The notes beneath the pieces were generated by a model. That model saw nothing but the letters and a program-made list of their open reading frames with translations. It was not told the DNA's origin and searched no databases. The translations under genes were made by a program, and so were the position numbers. A stretch of 32,603 nt of DNA from Campylobacterales bacterium. GTDB taxonomy: Bacteria > Campylobacterota > Campylobacteria > Campylobacterales > Hydrogenimonadaceae. Numbering within the stretch: position 1 is the first letter of the stretch; every line of letters starts with the position of its first letter. This document shows, piece after piece, positions 10,854-32,603 of this stretch. The stretch lies in NCBI GenBank assembly GCA_027065515.1, contig JAMOOM010000175.1, positions 1-32,603 of the forward strand. Direction: 5' to 3'.

Positions 10854-13760
10854 GTGGACTATACAAAAGCGATACAAATAGCACAAAACATTCACTGGGT
10901 AGGAATGTATTTGGAGAATGATCCTTTTCAGTGCCATCCTTATTTTATACACAATGGTGACGAGTCCATACTTATAGATCCAGGTTCAATGATAGAGTTC
11001 GATGCGGTTATGGAGAAAACTTCACAAATAACCGACTTGAAAAATATAAAATATATAATACTGCATCATCAAGATCCTGATCTGTGCGCATCGATTCCGG
11101 AAATAGAAAAAGTTATAGACAGAGATGATTTGAAGATAATTACGCATAGCCGCATGACGGTTCTGATAAAACACTATATGATAACATCGAGTTATTACGA
11201 GATAGACAAAAACGATTTTAAACTTGAAACGAACAATGGATTCAATTTAAAATTTCTCACTACACCCTATTGCCACTCTCCCGGAGCGTTTGTCACCTAT
11301 GATCCTAAAAGCAAAGTTCTCTTTTCCAGTGATATTTTTGGCGGGCTGGAAGAGTCTTGGGAGTTTTATGCAAAAGATGACTACTTTTCCAAGGTAAAAG
11401 CTTTTCATAGCACCTATATGCCAAGTAGGGATATTTTCAATCACGCTTTGAGAAAGATCGAGCAGCTAGATATAAACCTCATAGCGCCACAACATGGGTC
11501 GATCATAGAGAGACGATACGTATATGGGCTGATCGAAGATATGAAAAATCTTGAATGCGGCCTTTATATAGATAAAAAATATAACGATGAATTGACCGGT
11601 ACGATAGAAAAATTGAAAGCAAAAGAGAGAGAATTAAAGGAATACAAAAATCATCTCGAGGAGAAAGTAAAAGAAAAAACATACTTTCTCGAAGAAGCGA
11701 ATGCGGCGCTTCAGCTAGAACAAGAAAAACTGAATATGTTCAACGAGTATCTTGGTGAACTAAACTCTGTCGATGTAGGTTTTTTGGCAAACACCGCCAT
11801 AAAACAGATACTAAACATAGCCCAGGCGCAAATAGGTGTATTCTATATCAATGAAAACGACAAACGATTAAAGGTATTGGCGAAGCATAGCGTCGATCCC
11901 AAGCTGTTGAAATCGGGATTTTTCAACAACTCTTCCGGCGGCATAGTGGCTCAAGCATACAAGAGCGGCGAATGGATATATGTAGATGGGCTAAACGAAG
12001 AGTTGGCTCCCGAGATCGATCTTGGGTTTTACCGATCAAAACTGAAGCATATCGTAGCGATTCCATTGAAGTTTCAAGAGAAAAAGATAGGTGTCGTCCT
12101 GATCGGTTCCGTATCGAATGCCAGGTTCGACGAAGATTATCTAAAAGGATATATAAATACACTGGTGCAATCTTTGAACAATGCTATTACATATGTCGAA
12201 ACACAGAAACAATCTATCGAGCTTAGAGATATCAATATGCAGCTCGAAGAGGCGAATAGACTGAAATCAGAATTTTTAGCCAATGTATCTCATGAACTAA
12301 GAACACCTCTCAACTCTATTATCGGTTTTTCAAATATTTTACAAAAAAATAAAAAAGGAAATCTTTTACCGAAACAGTTGGATCAACTCGAAAAGATAAA
12401 CAGAAACGGTATGAACCTGCTCGATCTTATCAACAATATCCTGGATCTTAGCAAAATAGAATCGGGCAAAATGGAAGTCGAATTTAGAGAGATAGATATA
12501 GTGAGTGCCGTACACGATACTTTGGAACTTCTTATGCCGCAAGCAGCTAACGGCGGCAAAAAGATATCTTTTACAAATTCATTGGGAAGTGGTGCATATA
12601 AATATACGACCGATGAGCAAAAATTCAAACAGGTAATAGTAAATATAGTATCAAATGCATTGAAATTCGTTGAAAATGGCATCGGAAAGGTAGATGTAGA
12701 GGTTTTTGAAGAAAACGAAATGTTGAAGATAGCTGTTAAAGATAATGGTATAGGAATACCCGAAGAGAAATTTGAGAAGATTTTTGAGGCGTTCAGGCAG
12801 AGTGATGGAAGCACGACCAGGAGGTTTGGCGGTACTGGATTGGGGCTTGCCATATCAAAAAATATGCTGGAGTTGCTCGGTGGCTATATCGATCTCGAAT
12901 CGATAGTAGGGGAGGGGTCCACCTTTACCATTTGTCTGCCCTTGAACAAGAAGCAATCATCCATATTGTCGCCAGATTTTTTAAATGATTTCAAAGAAAA
13001 ACTCTACACTCTAGAGGATATCACCTCCGTGCTTGTGATAGACGATGCAAAGGATGTTAGAGATCTTATAGCGGAGTATCTAAGTGATCAAAATTATATC
13101 GTTTATGCCGCGGACAATGGATACGATGGAGTTGAGATGGCTAAAAAATTAAAGCCATCATTGATCACTCTGGATATCATGATGCCCGGTATGGATGGCT
13201 GGGAGGTTTTAAAAAGGCTGAAAGCGTCAAGCGAGACTTGCGATATTCCGGTGGTCACCATAACCAATGCGTCAAACAGATCCAAAAGCATATATCTGGG
13301 TGCAATCGACTCCATATCCAAGCCGTTGTCGAAAGATGATTTGCTCTCTTTTATCTCCAAATATTTCGATACCGGTAAAGCAGGCAGCGCTTTGATTGTC
13401 GATGATGAAGAGGATATCAGAGAGTTGATTCAAGAGTATATAGAAGACGATATAAAAAACATTCAAAGCGCATCCGATGGCAAAGAGGCTCTGGAGGTGA
13501 TAGAGAGAGGCTTTGTTCCCGATATCATCTATCTGGATTTGATGATGCCAAATCTGAGCGGATTCGAATTTTTGAAAATAGTGGAAACAAATCCCAAATT
13601 TAAAAATACCCATATAGCGGTAGTGACCGCAAAAGATCTAACGAACGAGGATATGGAGATTTTAAAACCGTCTTGTGTGAGCATAATTAAAAAAGGCGGA
13701 AATATCGAAGAGATAATCAAAGAGCTCGCCCAAGATGCCAAAAACGGCAGGTCAAAGTGA
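10854..13760 (+). CDS. Hybrid histidine kinase with di-iron MBL-fold (ODP-like) sensor, GAF and two receivers
   Basis: A soluble 968-residue sensor kinase, starting with GTG one base after the preceding stop. Residues 1-240 form a metallo-beta-lactamase fold like flavodiiron proteins and the oxygen-binding ODP sensors, with ligand candidates H72-x-D74-x-D76, H141, D160 and H214 in the right order; that domain is typically a di-iron O2 or NO site. A coiled coil (245-295) links to a GAF domain (about 300-450). HisKA has the phospho-accepting His480 in SHELRTP. The HATPase_c domain (585-700) has the N box near 601, DNGIGIP and GGTGLGLAI. Receiver 1 (725-838) carries Asp774 and Lys823. Receiver 2 (845-960) carries Asp895 but lacks the usual Lys-Pro pair. 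No membrane segment is visible, so it should sense cytosolic signals. The oxygen or redox stimulus is inferred. Confidence 0.88.
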   Translation: MDYTKAIQIAQNIHWVGMYLENDPFQCHPYFIHNGDESILIDPGSMIEFDAVMEKTSQITDLKNIKYIILHHQDPDLCASIPEIEKVIDRDDLKIITHSRMTVLIKHYMITSSYYEIDKNDFKLETNNGFNLKFLTTPYCHSPGAFVTYDPKSKVLFSSDIFGGLEESWEFYAKDDYFSKVKAFHSTYMPSRDIFNHALRKIEQLDINLIAPQHGSIIERRYVYGLIEDMKNLECGLYIDKKYNDELTGTIEKLKAKERELKEYKNHLEEKVKEKTYFLEEANAALQLEQEKLNMFNEYLGELNSVDVGFLANTAIKQILNIAQAQIGVFYINENDKRLKVLAKHSVDPKLLKSGFFNNSSGGIVAQAYKSGEWIYVDGLNEELAPEIDLGFYRSKLKHIVAIPLKFQEKKIGVVLIGSVSNARFDEDYLKGYINTLVQSLNNAITYVETQKQSIELRDINMQLEEANRLKSEFLANVSHELRTPLNSIIGFSNILQKNKKGNLLPKQLDQLEKINRNGMNLLDLINNILDLSKIESGKMEVEFREIDIVSAVHDTLELLMPQAANGGKKISFTNSLGSGAYKYTTDEQKFKQVIVNIVSNALKFVENGIGKVDVEVFEENEMLKIAVKDNGIGIPEEKFEKIFEAFRQSDGSTTRRFGGTGLGLAISKNMLELLGGYIDLESIVGEGSTFTICLPLNKKQSSILSPDFLNDFKEKLYTLEDITSVLVIDDAKDVRDLIAEYLSDQNYIVYAADNGYDGVEMAKKLKPSLITLDIMMPGMDGWEVLKRLKASSETCDIPVVTITNASNRSKSIYLGAIDSISKPLSKDDLLSFISKYFDTGKAGSALIVDDEEDIRELIQEYIEDDIKNIQSASDGKEALEVIERGFVPDIIYLDLMMPNLSGFEFLKIVETNPKFKNTHIAVVTAKDLTNEDMEILKPSCVSIIKKGGNIEEIIKELAQDAKNGRSK

Positions 13761-25412: not shown

Positions 25413-26681
25413 ATGAAAAAAGTCTATTTTAAAACGTTTGGTTGCAGAACCAACCAGTTCGATACGCAGGTAATGATGTCGAATTTAAGAAATTATAAGA
25501 TTACCCAGAATGAAGAGGAGGCCGACATTATCGTCGTCAACTCATGTACCGTCACCAATGGCGCCGACAGCGGAGTGCGTGGTTATATCAACCGAGTAGG
25601 TCGCATCAACTCCAAAGCCAGAGTGTTGCTGACAGGTTGCGGCGCCCACACCAAGGGCGAATCACTTTTTGAAAGCGGAAAAGTTCATGGAGTGTTCGGC
25701 CATAGCGAAAAGGAGAGAGTTACCGATTTTTTGACCAATTCCGACCGTTTCTATGAAATAGGGGATCTCGAGCATGTCGATACGACCGTGGTGGAGCAGT
25801 TTGTCGGAAAATCACGTGCTTTCATCAAGATCCAGGAGGGGTGCGATTTTCGTTGCAGCTACTGTATCATTCCATATGTTCGCGGAAACGCCAGAAGTCT
25901 GGACGAAACGTTGATCTTGAATCAGGTCGAAAAACTGGGGGCCAATGGATTTGGAGAGTTCATTCTGACGGGAACGAATGTGGGCAGCTATGGGAAAGAT
26001 CGAGGCTCCTCCATCGCCAAATTACTCAAGCGAATGAGCCTCGTGCGCGGTGTACGGCGCATACGCATCGGATCGCTGGAGCCGATTCAGATCGACGACG
26101 AGTTCAAAGAGTTGCTGGACGAGCCATGGATGGCGAGGCATCTGCATATTGCTTTGCAGCATACAAGCGACAGAATGCTTGAAATAATGAACCGTCGAAA
26201 CTCCTATGAAAATGATTTGGCGCTTTTTGAGGAGCTTTCAGGGCATGGATATGCTCTGGGCACCGATTTTATCGTAGGCCACCCCGGAGAGGGAGAATCC
26301 GAATGGAAAGAGGCTATCGAGAGGGTCCGCGCTCTGCCCTTGACGCATGTGCATGCTTTCAGCTATTCCAAGCGTGACGGCACCCCAAGCGCCAAAATGA
26401 ATCCACAGGTTTTGGGAAATATAGCAAAAGAGCGCCATAGGGAGCTTACCGATCTGATAAAGGCTAAAAATTATGCCTTCAGGCGCTCCCTGTGCTCTTC
26501 GAAAAAGCCATTGGACGTGCTGGTGGAGAGCGAAAAAGATGGGTGTTTCGTGGGGCTTGACCAATATTTCAACAAAGTTTCAATCGAAAGCGACCACGAT
26601 CTGCGAGGAGAGTGGGTGCGAATCGATAGTTTCGAAGCAGAGCGACAGATAAATCGTGCAACCTTCAAAGGTCTATTTTAA
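25413..26681 (+). CDS. mtaB: tRNA t6A37 methylthiotransferase MtaB
   Basis: A radical-SAM enzyme that adds a methylthio group to t6A at position 37 of ANN-decoding tRNAs. The N-terminal UPF0004 domain supplies Cys11, Cys45 and Cys76 for the auxiliary iron-sulfur cluster. The radical-SAM cluster is C144-x3-C148-x2-C151 (GCDFRCSYC). A C-terminal TRAM-like segment ends the 422-residue protein. The FKTFGCRTNQFDT start and SCTVTNGADSGVR favour MtaB over MiaB or RimO. Translation starts on the base after the mscS stop codon, and the FtsH-like gene starts one base after its own stop. Confidence 0.93.
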   Translation: MKKVYFKTFGCRTNQFDTQVMMSNLRNYKITQNEEEADIIVVNSCTVTNGADSGVRGYINRVGRINSKARVLLTGCGAHTKGESLFESGKVHGVFGHSEKERVTDFLTNSDRFYEIGDLEHVDTTVVEQFVGKSRAFIKIQEGCDFRCSYCIIPYVRGNARSLDETLILNQVEKLGANGFGEFILTGTNVGSYGKDRGSSIAKLLKRMSLVRGVRRIRIGSLEPIQIDDEFKELLDEPWMARHLHIALQHTSDRMLEIMNRRNSYENDLALFEELSGHGYALGTDFIVGHPGEGESEWKEAIERVRALPLTHVHAFSYSKRDGTPSAKMNPQVLGNIAKERHRELTDLIKAKNYAFRRSLCSSKKPLDVLVESEKDGCFVGLDQYFNKVSIESDHDLRGEWVRIDSFEAERQINRATFKGLF

Positions 26682-26682
26682 G

Positions 26683-28335
26683 ATGCAGATGTCCAGAAAG
26701 AATCGTGTTATTCTTGCAGTCTCTGCACTTGTGGTGATACTGGTGCTCGGTTTTGCATATTTTATCAAGGATCGTGCGCGCACGATCGATGCGGCTACGG
26801 CACAAAATCTTATCGAGAACTCTTTGGTGAGAGATGTCGAGATCGAAGGCCCATATCTCTATTTCAAAAGTGGTGGAGCGAGATACCGCGTACCCAAAGA
26901 TGGCGTAGATATAAAAAAGCTGTACGAAACGACAGCTGTGACGATCAAGGAGCCCAACCCGTACCTTGCCGATATCTTTACCGTATCGATCCTGGCGTTG
27001 CTCGTAATATATCTTCTTAGATGGGCGCGCAAGAACAAGGAGCAAAGAGAGCAGCAGATCAGCGAGCAGATTCAGCTGGCCAGCGAACTTCAAAAACCTG
27101 CAGATATTCGCCCAATCATTTCCAATATAACATTCGAAGATGTGGCCGGGATCGATGATGTCAAAGAGGAGCTTGAAGAGATCATAGATTTTCTAAAGCA
27201 TCCGCAAAAATATAGAAATTTCGGTATTCGTATGCCGCGCGGTGTTCTTCTGGTGGGCCCTCCAGGCGTTGGCAAGACACTCATCGCCAAAGCCGTAGCG
27301 GGTGAGGCCGGGGTGCCGTTTTTCTATCAAAGTGGCGCCTCTTTCGTGCAGATTTATGTGGGCATGGGTGCCAAGCGGGTGCGCGAACTGTTCAAGCGCG
27401 CCAAATCCATGGCGCCTGCCATCGTCTTTATCGACGAGATCGATGCTGTCGGAAAAGCGCGCGGCGGGATGCGAAACGACGAACGTGAAGCAACGCTCAA
27501 TCAGCTCTTGACGGAGATGGATGGTTTTGAAGATAGCAGCGGTATTATCGTTATCGCGGCTACAAACAAGATAGAGATGCTCGACGATGCGCTGTTGCGC
27601 CCTGGCCGTTTCGATCGGAGGGTCTTTGTCTCGCTTCCCAACAAGGAAGAGAGAAAGTCGATTTTGAAAATCTATCTCGCAAACAAGCCTCATTATGTAG
27701 ATCTGGACAAATTGGCTCAAATGACGGTGGGATTCAGCGGCGCGGCATTGTCCTCCCTGGTCAACGAAGCGGCGATATATGCGCTCAAAAGTGGCAAGAA
27801 AGTGATAGAGAATGAAGATTTTCTGGCTGTCAAGGATAAGGTATTGCTGGGTAAGCGCAAGATTCTGACCTATGGCGACGAGGAGAAGAGGATCCAGGCG
27901 TCCTATCAGGCGGCAAAAGCGGTCACGGCTTACTGGCTGGATGTAAATTTCACAAAAATCGGTCTCTTGGGGGACCATTTTGAAAATGCCGAAAAGGAGA
28001 TTGTTTCAAGAAGTGAACTCCTCAATAAAATCAAAGTGCTGCTTTCTGGAGATATGATGATGCATATACACTTTCATGAGCACTTCACCAATGCTGCAAA
28101 CGATTTGAAAGAGGCGAGGATTTTGGCTCAGGATATGGTGGAGCGTTATGGAATGGGGGAGCGTATTCATGCCGATGTGGCGGATGTAGAGAAGATTCTC
28201 GAAGAGGCGAAGCTGGATGTGGAAGGTTTCGTCGCGCAAATGGAGGAGGGAATCTTGAGGCTTTCAGAAGAGATTTTAAAGCGCGAGATCGTTACAAAAG
28301 AGGATGTCAAAGAGATACTGCATGACCTTTTTTAG
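26683..28335 (+). CDS. FtsH-like membrane AAA+ ATPase lacking the protease zinc motif
   Basis: A 550-residue FtsH homologue. Two membrane helices (9-27 and 98-113) flank a short periplasmic domain. The AAA+ module has Walker A GPPGVGKT (192-199), Walker B VFIDEID (248-254) and Arg fingers in LLRPGRFDR (304-312). The pore loop FVQIYVGMG (221-229) replaces the usual FVEMFVGVG. Where FtsH has HEAGH the sequence is YQAAK (408-412), so both zinc histidines and the catalytic Glu are gone; the distal Asp in AANDLKEA (471-478) remains. I infer a proteolytically dead unfoldase or assembly factor. ATG 26683 follows the mtaB stop; a GTG nine codons upstream is less likely. It overlaps bioV by 14 bases. 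A true FtsH should be encoded elsewhere. Confidence 0.93.
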
Positions 28336-29458: not shown

Positions 29459-29992
29459 ATGGATACTATCAAGGTGGGTGTCGTTACCGCAAGCGATCGT
29501 GCAAGTGCCGGCATATACGAAGATATTTCGGGTGTCGCGATTATGGACACTCTAAGAGAGTATTTGCAAAACGAGATAGAGTTTCTCTACCGATGTATAC
29601 CCGATGAACAAAACGAGATCGAAGGTGCGCTGATAGAGCTGGCCAAAAGTGAAGAGTGCGATCTTGTCGTCACTACCGGCGGCACGGGACCGGCTTTGCG
29701 TGATGTGACACCTGAAGCGACCGAAGCTGTTTGTGAAAAGATGATGCCCGGATTTGGTGAATTGATGCGGCAGGTGAGCCTTCAGTACGTTCCCACGGCG
29801 ATACTCAGTCGTCAGACGGCGGGTATCTGCGGGAAAAGCCTCATTGTCAACCTGCCCGGAAAACCAAAATCGATCAGAGAGTGCCTGGATGCGGTTTTCC
29901 CTGCTATTCCATACTGCATAGATTTGATCGGGGGACGCTACATGGTCACGAACGATGATGTCATCAAAGCGTTTCGTCCAAAAGGAAAATAG
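29459..29992 (+). CDS. mogA: Molybdopterin adenylyltransferase MogA
   Basis: Adenylylates molybdopterin before molybdate insertion, a late step of molybdenum cofactor synthesis. The 177-residue MoCF domain is complete: GVVTASDRASAG (7-18), TTGGTGPALRDVTPEA (72-87) and LPGKPKSIRECLD (132-144). LRDVTPEAT and the length favour MogA over MoaB. GGAAGG lies immediately upstream with about four bases to the ATG. Molybdoenzymes such as periplasmic nitrate reductase are usual in this phylum, which would fit the NIT-domain receptor in the window, but no such enzyme is visible here. Confidence 0.94.
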   Translation: MDTIKVGVVTASDRASAGIYEDISGVAIMDTLREYLQNEIEFLYRCIPDEQNEIEGALIELAKSEECDLVVTTGGTGPALRDVTPEATEAVCEKMMPGFGELMRQVSLQYVPTAILSRQTAGICGKSLIVNLPGKPKSIRECLDAVFPAIPYCIDLIGGRYMVTNDDVIKAFRPKGK

Positions 29993-29999
29993 TAGAAAA

Positions 30000-32603
30000 A
30001 TGGGAAAAAAGAAGAAAAAATTTATAAAATATAATCAAACCATACGCAAGATTTTCGGTGGCGAAGGCTTTGACGAAGGAATCGCCCGCGTGCCATTGGA
30101 TAACCTGATCGAGATGGCGATGATCCTTTCTCTCAAAGAGCAAAATCTCAGCAAAGCCGATCTCGTGCGTGCTTTCAGGAGATTATGGTCCAATGCGGAT
30201 ACTGCGGACAGGGCATTGATAACGGAATATCTGAAATCTTTGGATACAACTTTCAAGGCTGACGGAACGGTTACCGATACGCTGGCCAGAAGTGAAAAGA
30301 TAGATGAAATTCTGGCATCCATTCCCCATTCACCTGCCGAAGAGGTGGCAATAAAGGAGCATTTTGCAGAGGTGAAGCTCAAGAAGATCACTCCACAGCG
30401 CATTGCGCGCGAGCTGATGAAATTGCGCAACATACAGAAGCGCTCGCATTTGGAAGAGGCTTTCGATGGGGCTTTCGACGAAGAGGGGAACTTCATCTTC
30501 TTTCACGCTTTCTCTTTCGAGGTTTTCGAAGAGAGATTTCACAAAATATTGCAGCTAAATTGTCATCCATTCGAGGATGAAGAGATCGTGAAAGAAGACG
30601 AGGGTCTGTTGAGCGACAAATTGTCAAAATGCAAAGAAGAAGCTGTTTTGAAAATGCAAGAGCGCATAGAAGGGTTTTTGCATTATGCCCAGGCTCCAAA
30701 CCGCTATATGAACAAAGATCAGATCATAGCTTCCATAAAGCGAATACCCGAAGATTGCGACATGATCCTCGTTCCAATTCCCGATCCAATCATAAAAGAG
30801 ATATTCAGTGAGAAATTCGATATCGCCGATATCGAATTTCGCGCGGATACGATCAGGCTTTTCAGGAATGAGAGCAGATCGCTCTTTGCGAATATCGAGT
30901 GGAGAGTGGAGTATCGCCTGCTTCTGGAAGTGCAAAAGAGATGGATCTATCAGGCTGTATGGCACAATGAAAAGATGCCGATAGAGGAAGATTTCAGACA
31001 AAAACAGATAGAGGCCGGATCAAAATTCGATGCGGAACTGGAGGCTCTCAAAGATGCATTGATGCTTGAAGCGGATGGCTTGGGCATGAAGGAAGAGCAG
31101 ATCGAAGCGATTATAGCAGGAGCGGTGATCGAGGCTATCGCAAAGAGCGGAATTCTTGAAATTCCATACAAGACTCTGAAAGCGATAAATAGATATTTTG
31201 CCAAGCAGATAGAGGGGTTGAAACTCAAAAAACAGCGTGAAGAGCTGCTTGCCAAGACGATCAGGGATTTTAAAAACCTGTTTCCTCTGGCGCGCGAAAT
31301 GAACAGAAAGCTCATTTTTCACGTAGGCCCCACCAATAGCGGTAAAACATACGCCGCGATGCAAAAGCTGATAGCGGCCGATACCGGATACTATCTGGCA
31401 CCACTGAGGCTTTTGGCGCTGGAGGGTTACGAAACGCTTAAAAAAGCCGGCATCGAGGCATCGCTCGTGACAGGCGAAGAGCAGCTGATCGACGAGGAGG
31501 CGGCCCATATAAGCTCGACAATCGAAATGGCCAATTTTCAGATAGATGTGGATGTTTGCGTTATCGATGAAGTGCAGATGATCGCCGATAGTGACAGGGG
31601 TTGGGCTTGGGCGAACGCTATCATCGGAATACCTGCCAAGACGGTTATAATGACAGGAAGCGAAGATGCACTCAGCGCCATCGAAGAGCTTGCCGAATGG
31701 CTGGGCGAAGAGCTGGAGGTGGTTCGTTTCGAGCGTAAGGCTCCATTGATTTTGAACCACCATCCTACATCCCTCAAAAAGCTGGAGCCCTCCACGGCGA
31801 TCGTTGCATTCTCCAGGCGAGATGTATTGGCGCTCAAAGAGCAGCTGAGTGGACGTTACGATGTGTCGGTGGTATATGGAAATCTGAGTCCTGAAGTGCG
31901 TCGTGAAGAGGCGCGCCGATTCAGGGAGGGGGAATCGCAGGTACTGGTGGCTACGGATGCGATAGCCATGGGGTTGAACCTTCCTATCCGTACGATCCTT
32001 TTTGCCAGGGATTCCAAATTCGACGGCCAAAGCAGGCGTCTGCTGACTCCTTCGGAGATCAGACAGATCGCCGGTAGAGCAGGGCGTTATGGTCTGCACG
32101 AAGAGGGGTATGTGGGCGCGCTTACGGGCCCGGTGCTCAATACGGTCATCGAACTGATCGACGAACCGGCTTTGCAGATACATGGGCCTTATCGGGTGAT
32201 GGCGAATTTCGAACATATCGATCTTGTAGCCAAGATCATAGAGACCGAAAGCCTTTCGGAAATTTTGGGTTTTTTCGTCAAAAATATGAGGTTCGATGGC
32301 CCTTTTATCGCCGCGAATATCGAAAATATGCTTGAAATCGCGAAGATGGTGGATCTTTACAATCTTGATCTAAAGACAAAATATCATCTTGCATGCGCTC
32401 CGCTTAGCCTGGGGTCGGCATATCTGGAGAGCGTATTCCATCGATATCTTATAGCTCTTGAGCGGCACGAAGTGATTCATTTTGCGATTCCGAACAATCT
32501 TCCTGCCGTCGCAAAGACATCCGATATGCTTTTTGAAGCCGAAGAACGCGTAAAAGAGGTTTCGCTCTATCTGTGGCTATCTTATCGTTTTCCGGAAGCT
32601 TTC
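30000..32603 (+). CDS. Suv3-like DExH RNA helicase (partial)
   Basis: An open frame runs from ATG 30000 to the right edge with 868 codons and no stop, so the C-terminus is missing. The helicase core resembles mitochondrial Suv3: motif I GPTNSGKT (443-450), motif II DEVQM (523-527), TGSEDA as motif III, ATDAIAMGLNLP as motif V, and motif VI QIAGRAGRYG (689-698). Suv3 unwinds RNA 3' to 5' for exoribonuclease partners such as PNPase. The first 440 residues are charged and helical with no family I recognise; a Lys-rich start (MGKKKKKF) could bind RNA. It starts seven bases after the mogA stop, with AAGGA 13 bases from the ATG (a long spacing). RNA decay is inferred. Confidence 0.88.
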   Translation, partial: MGKKKKKFIKYNQTIRKIFGGEGFDEGIARVPLDNLIEMAMILSLKEQNLSKADLVRAFRRLWSNADTADRALITEYLKSLDTTFKADGTVTDTLARSEKIDEILASIPHSPAEEVAIKEHFAEVKLKKITPQRIARELMKLRNIQKRSHLEEAFDGAFDEEGNFIFFHAFSFEVFEERFHKILQLNCHPFEDEEIVKEDEGLLSDKLSKCKEEAVLKMQERIEGFLHYAQAPNRYMNKDQIIASIKRIPEDCDMILVPIPDPIIKEIFSEKFDIADIEFRADTIRLFRNESRSLFANIEWRVEYRLLLEVQKRWIYQAVWHNEKMPIEEDFRQKQIEAGSKFDAELEALKDALMLEADGLGMKEEQIEAIIAGAVIEAIAKSGILEIPYKTLKAINRYFAKQIEGLKLKKQREELLAKTIRDFKNLFPLAREMNRKLIFHVGPTNSGKTYAAMQKLIAADTGYYLAPLRLLALEGYETLKKAGIEASLVTGEEQLIDEEAAHISSTIEMANFQIDVDVCVIDEVQMIADSDRGWAWANAIIGIPAKTVIMTGSEDALSAIEELAEWLGEELEVVRFERKAPLILNHHPTSLKKLEPSTAIVAFSRRDVLALKEQLSGRYDVSVVYGNLSPEVRREEARRFREGESQVLVATDAIAMGLNLPIRTILFARDSKFDGQSRRLLTPSEIRQIAGRAGRYGLHEEGYVGALTGPVLNTVIELIDEPALQIHGPYRVMANFEHIDLVAKIIETESLSEILGFFVKNMRFDGPFIAANIENMLEIAKMVDLYNLDLKTKYHLACAPLSLGSAYLESVFHRYLIALERHEVIHFAIPNNLPAVAKTSDMLFEAEERVKEVSLYLWLSYRFPEAF

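Follow-up and report, generated by a model that had tools for sequence, protein, structure and literature searches.

A Suv3-family helicase of Campylobacterota with a large N-terminal domain found in three families of the phylum among the genomes searched

Results

The DNA analysed here (the window) is the entire contig C175, 32,603 nucleotides in length, of a 221-contig draft genome of a Campylobacterales bacterium. Its last gene (positions 30000 to 32603, forward strand, 868 codons up to the contig end) encodes a helicase whose core, judged by sequence and predicted fold, is almost certainly of the Suv3 family, and whose long N-terminal region is, with great confidence, a folded module. This N-terminal domain is restricted to three Campylobacterota families within what was searched. 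Bacterial Suv3 proteins and their variable N-terminus are already known, and the novelty lies in this particular domain and in its distribution.

Helicase core

A reading of the letters and translations alone (the sequence-only reading) had recognised the core motifs as those of Suv3, and the comparisons bore this out. The Pfam scan placed the RecA1 or DEXQ-box domain of Suv3 (PF22527, DEXQc_Suv3) at 31305 to 31775 on the forward strand with an E-value of 1.8e-56 and 190.4 bits against a cut-off of 27. Motif I (GPTNSGKT) starts at 31326, and motif II (DEVQ, 31566) lies inside RecA1. RecA2 (Helicase_C, PF00271, E 9.1e-15) follows on the same strand at 31782 to 32138 and contains VATDAIAMGLN (31947) and QIAGRAGRYG (32064). 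The Suv3 C-terminal helical region (32139 to 32603, forward strand) reaches the contig end; the Suv3_C_1 match there is weak and below its cut-off, and the first 25 of the 48 positions of SUV3_C (PF12513) fall in the window with 30.2 bits against a cut-off of 27. On contig C83, which probably continues the gene (see below), the complete SUV3_C match was found at 103-246 (E 2.2e-15, 57.8 bits, same cut-off).

Among PDB sequences, human SUPV3L1 (E 5.4e-76) and Candida Suv3 (6.9e-69) lead, with Ski2 (1.2e-21), Mtr4 and Hel308 (1.7e-14) far behind. Hel308, RecG and RecQ models appeared in the NCBIfam scan of the window protein, all far under their cut-offs. Structures were compared with the predicted full model of a 930-residue relative (L053), whose pTM of 0.56 makes the placement of its domains uncertain. 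This model superposed on SUPV3L1 (3rc3) with a Z-score of 43.0 and 2.3 A over 482 residues (model 413-908), and the next enzymes, Hel308 (19.1) and those of Ski2 type, reached about 19. A grouping of the core with DNA-repair helicases was thus looked for in both comparisons and not found.

Residues of human SUV3 which contact RNA are K234, T275, F373, K375, T424 and D425 (PMC5758563). The human numbering was placed on the alignment by one constant offset of 45 and read by eye; at these positions, in motifs Ia, Ib, IV and V, four of six residues are identical to human SUV3 and the other two are K to R changes. By analogy with its family, the enzyme probably acts on RNA, and we would rely on this rather firmly.

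Gene start and contig junction

The open frame extends from 29955 to 32603 on the forward strand and is still open where the contig stops. The ATG at 30000 (protein MGKKKKK...) is likely the start codon, since the gene upstream ends at 29992 and the relatives begin with MA or MGKKKK at the aligned position. That upstream gene (29459 to 29992, forward strand, 7 bases before the Suv3 start) codes for a molybdopterin-binding protein (MoCF_biosynth; MoaB/Mog-like), which is also the same-strand upstream neighbour in eight clustered Suv3 loci. The gene limits proposed from the sequence, 30000 and 32603, were right.

The last 177 bases of C175 (32427-32603) recur, with 2 mismatches, as the opening 177 of contig C83 (locus L001), and C83 carries the frame on by 62 codons to a stop (C83 bases 178-366). 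The joined frame counts 930 codons, and the Hydrogenimonas-type relatives L053 and L005 are likewise of 930 amino acids. The gene is thus probably one of 930 codons split between the two contigs. The mismatched overlap suggests mixed strains in the assembly and hints that the contigs derive from slightly different ones, so that the junction is given as probable. Of the full gene which the sequence-only reading had called for, 868 codons were obtained in the window and the remaining 62 on C83 across this probable junction. The window protein is 87% identical to L053; its nearest named relatives are Hydrogenimonas MAGs, with one of which it groups in the tree.

Two other genes of the window were of note. 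The product of 26656-28335, an FtsH-like AAA plus peptidase M41 protein of 559 amino acids in which the M41 match covers profile positions 53-111 of 191, is a shortened or unusual FtsH. At 10854-13760, a protein of 968 residues combines an ODP-type metallo-beta-lactamase domain with GAF, histidine kinase and two response-regulator stretches.

N-terminal region

Motif I begins at residue 443, so that 442 residues stand ahead of it, close to the 440 first estimated. The number is 435-442 in every one of the 29 distinct complete genes (these come from 34 loci whose N-terminal region is complete, five of the loci being second copies), and 27 columns are invariant across their alignment. The lineage-specific part was taken as 30000 to 31235 on the forward strand (about residues 1-412), with its boundary where the SUPV3L1 alignment begins. 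The high charge and the initial lysine run which had drawn attention to this region were both confirmed: D, E, K and R make up 34% of residues 1-425 vs 24% elsewhere in the protein, and the start MGKKKKKFIKYNQTIRKIFG (30000 to 30060, forward strand), in which a helix is predicted at 2-18, is basic in 100 aligned rows, with a mean net charge of +7.2 over residues 1-20 (5-95% range 6 to 8). The other blocks are mostly neutral or acidic up to about residue 380.

The AlphaFold2 model of residues 1-436, built from the 100 rows, has a mean pLDDT of 89.9 and a pTM of 0.63. It predicts helices to about residue 154, strands at 157-188, a long helix at 201-230, helices at 239-272, strands at 277-312 and helices at 313-383. 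A 44-residue helix (390-433; 31167 to 31307, forward strand), with the conserved LLAxTIRDFKNLFPLAR, then leads into RecA1. The constant length, the invariant residues and the confident fold point to a domain that is folded and basic at its tip, and not to a loose charged tail.

The proposal that the region resembles no known domain held in all the searches performed. No credible Pfam or NCBIfam model was found in residues 1-436, in the single scan or in the Pfam scan of 29 members, and a profile search of PDB sequences returned one chance-level match (E 0.43). Foldseek with the N-terminal model gave nothing credible against the PDB (best E 0.06) or against viral models (best E 0.02); the latter match, to a long viral A-type inclusion protein (probability 0.72, rmsd 38.7 A), was rejected as chance. 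VIA-align likewise gave nothing credible (best Z 5.6). The region may have some already known fold, since VIA-align re-ranks the Foldseek matches alone and the searches hardly probed parts of the model. In viral_contigs, 600 candidate stretches were searched for the N-terminal domain, and none contained it.

An internal duplication was considered from the order strand-strand-long helix, which occurs twice in the model, and was rejected, as profile comparison gave it no support: the two halves scored 15.0 against each other, 8 of 150 shuffles were as high and unrelated segment pairs scored 16.8-19.8.

Distribution in Campylobacterota

The distribution was determined in 298 genomes spread evenly over the phylum. 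Strong matches to the Suv3 core were obtained in 70 genomes, a count of strong rows, the larger tally of 92 including weak matches to other helicases. The profile search of the N-terminal region, which the sequence-only reading had put forward, recovered the domain in 49 of the 298 genomes. In each of them it shares one open frame with Suv3, to which it is fused, and the E-values are 4.8e-50 or below, hence more than chance. One weak match outside Suv3 (E 0.00116, 111 residues, genome G269) was counted as chance and is not among the 49.

This long form is present in 5/5 genomes of family f1 (one, G199, as a fragment), 18/19 of f4 and 26/26 of f8, which are by tree neighbours Hydrogenimonadaceae, Sulfurovaceae and Sulfurimonadaceae respectively. 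The bacteria in which the domain is known so far thus oxidise sulfur and hydrogen. A short form, without the N-terminal domain by profile search, is found in 19/20 genomes of f7, which we take to be Arcobacter relatives, and in 2/2 of f10. In the remaining families of the sample, Suv3 was found in none of 226 genomes. Two of the families in the sample, f3, mostly without DEAD-box helicases, and f2, mostly with one, are inferred to be Campylobacter and Helicobacter, a pattern which fits their description in PMC5874925.

Named genomes were scanned with two peptide patterns from the helicase junction, a procedure which detects copies of the domain fused at that junction only; 80 of 256 relatives were kept, and all 80 carry Campylobacterota titles. 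The cores of the short forms are 52-57% identical to the present one, and in the tree they form one clade beside the long forms. The short forms are strongly grouped (100/99); the grouping of the long forms is weak (39/87, the branch side occurring in 34% of 200 bootstrap trees). Because the outgroup branches are long, the tree fits a gain of the N-terminus in the long forms or a loss in the short ones. The tree was built without Vitreoscilla and Ideonella (missed by the motif pattern), without Paracoccus (on purpose), and without L001, L002, L007 and five duplicate loci.

Two irregular loci were observed. About 1 kb upstream of the Suv3 gene of one genome, a 45-residue frame (G010:C2:153127-153237) repeats the first 37 N-terminal residues (E 1.5e-13) and is a partial duplication of the start of that gene. 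At L102 the helicase frame stops 55 residues past motif I while the contig continues, and this is an interrupted gene or an assembly error.

C-terminal zinc ribbon and basic tail

The long forms end in a zinc-ribbon motif (C-x2-C ... C-x2-C), present in 65/65 of the non-window rows of a 66-row alignment; the tail that comes after it is basic, with a mean charge of +7.4. For the window gene both lie on C83, its probable continuation beyond the window end. Of the 80 loci taken from named genomes, 79 have a helicase frame, and 73 of these carry the ribbon; the six without it are all shortened, five at a contig end and L102 by its interrupted frame. None of 14 short forms has the ribbon, the basic tail being kept there. 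The motif is also found in Suv3 of Azospirillum, Lachnospira and Butyrivibrio. Its presence in other bacteria together with its absence from the short forms indicates that it is not special to the long-form lineage; possibly the motif is ancient and has disappeared from the short forms.

RNases, DEAD-box helicases and gene neighbours

An RNB-family exonuclease was detected in 67/70 Suv3 genomes vs 213/228 without Suv3, and such a near-universal enzyme carries no co-occurrence signal. The search of the window's own draft genome found none, probably owing to an assembly gap; its four sampled congeners have one. PNPase and RNase J were looked for in this genome only, where RNase J is present and PNPase occurs as a contig-end fragment (217-amino-acid frame). 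DEAD-box helicases, on the other hand, are found in 70/70 Suv3 genomes vs 130/228 others, so that Suv3 stands beside a rich repertoire of helicases instead of taking over from the DEAD-box enzymes.

Gene neighbourhoods were clustered for 93 loci, and the 25 largest clusters were judged by eye from the first 60 residues. The neighbours differ between families, and no RNase gene was recognised beside Suv3 in these clusters. Downstream on the same strand, four long-form loci (L051, 8256-10322, and three others) have a UvrD/Rep-type helicase-like gene and 10/14 short-form loci (L033, 743-2701, and nine others) have a member of one cluster that is ankyrin-type repeat protein-like, both by eye.

Discussion

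Our preferred interpretation, to which about even weight is given, is a 3'-5' RNA helicase that uses its N-terminal domain for docking a partner or for holding RNA. As judged from its family, the enzyme would unwind or translocate along RNA in the 3'-to-5' direction at the expense of ATP, with RNA threaded through the ring of RecA1, RecA2 and the C-terminal region as in SUPV3L1. Grip on structured RNA or ribonucleoprotein could come from the basic helix at the start and from the zinc ribbon, while the N-terminal body would bind a partner specific to the lineage. The likeliest such partner would be a 3' exonuclease (PNPase or RNase R) that receives unwound 3' ends from the helicase. That the domain serves docking or RNA holding is a balanced call, and that the partner is an exonuclease is a tentative suggestion leaning to the unlikely side. 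The docking idea is modelled on mtEXO, in which the Suv3 N-terminal domain touches Dss1 (PMC5758563). In the alignments returned, the N-terminal model is unlike SUPV3L1's own N-terminal domain, and the analogy is therefore one of position, without demonstrated likeness of fold. The mostly neutral or acidic blocks argue against a large RNA-binding face, and the short form, which lacks domain and ribbon, indicates that neither is needed for core function.

The known bacterial degradosomes employ DEAD-box helicases and mitochondria employ Suv3, according to PMC5818665. The sequence-only reading had raised the possibility of a bacterial Suv3 degradosome; the lack of RNB correlation, of a recognised RNase neighbour and of any Suv3 genome without DEAD-box helicases speaks against a simple form of it. 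It is quite doubtful that the N-terminal region is a new fold on which free-living Campylobacterota assemble a Suv3-based machine for RNA decay. If true, this would be a bacterial counterpart of the mitochondrial degradosome, unlike every described DEAD-box degradosome.

Lysine-rich helices, zinc ribbons and basic tails are features common in ribosomal proteins. The helicase might serve ribosome biogenesis, its basic helix, ribbon and tail targeting pre-rRNA or ribosomes so that RNA structure is removed with no exonuclease involved. The basic start across 100 rows, the basic tail in 65/65, the uncorrelated exonuclease and the confinement of Suv3 to genomes with DEAD-box helicases (70/70) would all suit such a role. 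Against it, inspection by eye of the 25 largest neighbour clusters showed no ribosomal gene, and where the family has been studied it works together with an exonuclease in RNA decay (PMC5818665, PMC5758563); we regard it as unlikely, if worth retaining.

Somewhat more improbable is an ordinary Suv3 N-terminal domain which has diverged past recognition, without any lineage-specific addition. The region occupies the same place in the protein, and other bacterial Suv3 have N-terminal stretches in this most variable part of the family (PMC10253155). However, hhalign gave the 100-row profile probabilities of 0.7% at most against eight sets of N-termini from other bacterial or phage Suv3, the profiles of those sets being thin; no Pfam Suv3 N-terminal match was found among 29 members; and the model aligns structurally to SUPV3L1 only from residue 388-413 onward.

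Action on DNA or on RNA-DNA hybrids, in R-loops or repair, for which the N-terminal region would be the DNA-binding module, would accord with the several substrate types unwound by SUPV3L1 (cited in PMC10253155) and with the UvrD/Rep-type-like gene next on the same strand in four long-form loci, but the core is much nearer to Suv3 than to Hel308 and retains the RNA-contacting residues, making this very unlikely. Finally, a disordered, low-constraint charged extension, as the charge and lack of database matches might suggest, is contradicted by the constant length, invariant residues and confident predicted fold and deserves hardly any credence.

The long form in three families, the short form in related ones and no Suv3 in 226 other genomes of the sample constitute a natural experiment on what the extra domain adds; the domain may also merit a protein family entry of its own. 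An RNA helicase survey of the class counts DEAD-box enzymes and does not mention Suv3 (PMC5874925), and a literature search by title, mostly of papers outside subscription journals, found none on this protein.

Comparison with known Suv3 proteins and degradosome helicases

Suv3 had been introduced as a family best known from mitochondria. The core is indeed Suv3, but bacterial members are less unusual than this implied, since the core was found in Alpha-, Beta- and Gammaproteobacteria, Bacillota and a phage, with matches in 43 plasmid records and three phage records. Among 14 control genomes, the Pfam Suv3 model matches Caulobacter, Synechococcus and Corynebacterium, and also four archaea, so that it is not strictly specific. 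In Salicola phage SCTP-2 (L138, 3114-4934), a Suv3-type helicase 37% identical over the core is annotated as a hypothetical protein. A publication of 1999 dealt with the conservation of Suv3 from Rhodobacter to eukaryotes (cited in PMC10253155), and PMC10253155 describes the N-terminal domain as the most variable part of the family; the role of that domain in human SUV3 was given as unknown as of 2018 (PMC5758563).

Human SUPV3L1 (3rc3, 3rc8, 7w1r) has the same two RecA domains, Suv3 C-terminal region and RNA-contacting residues, whereas the present protein has some 410 N-terminal residues that did not align to it and a C-terminal zinc-ribbon motif, in a setting with no mitochondrion. The yeast-type Suv3 of mtEXO (6f4a, with Dss1) shares the core (Z 40.7) and also has a large part before RecA1; this part contacts Dss1 there (PMC5758563), whereas the partner proposed here is putative. 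In other annotated bacterial Suv3, 11 to 419 residues were measured before motif I. Those of Azospirillum and Lachnospira have the same core and C-terminal zinc-ribbon motif, with 214 and 56 residues before motif I respectively vs 442 in the window protein, and no relation of the Azospirillum stretch to the window N-terminus was detected. The short Suv3 of f7 and f10 share core and basic tail and differ by the absence of both N-terminal domain and zinc ribbon. The DEAD-box degradosome helicases RhpA and CshA are likewise superfamily 2 RNA helicases of related bacteria, and they belong to a different family from Suv3.
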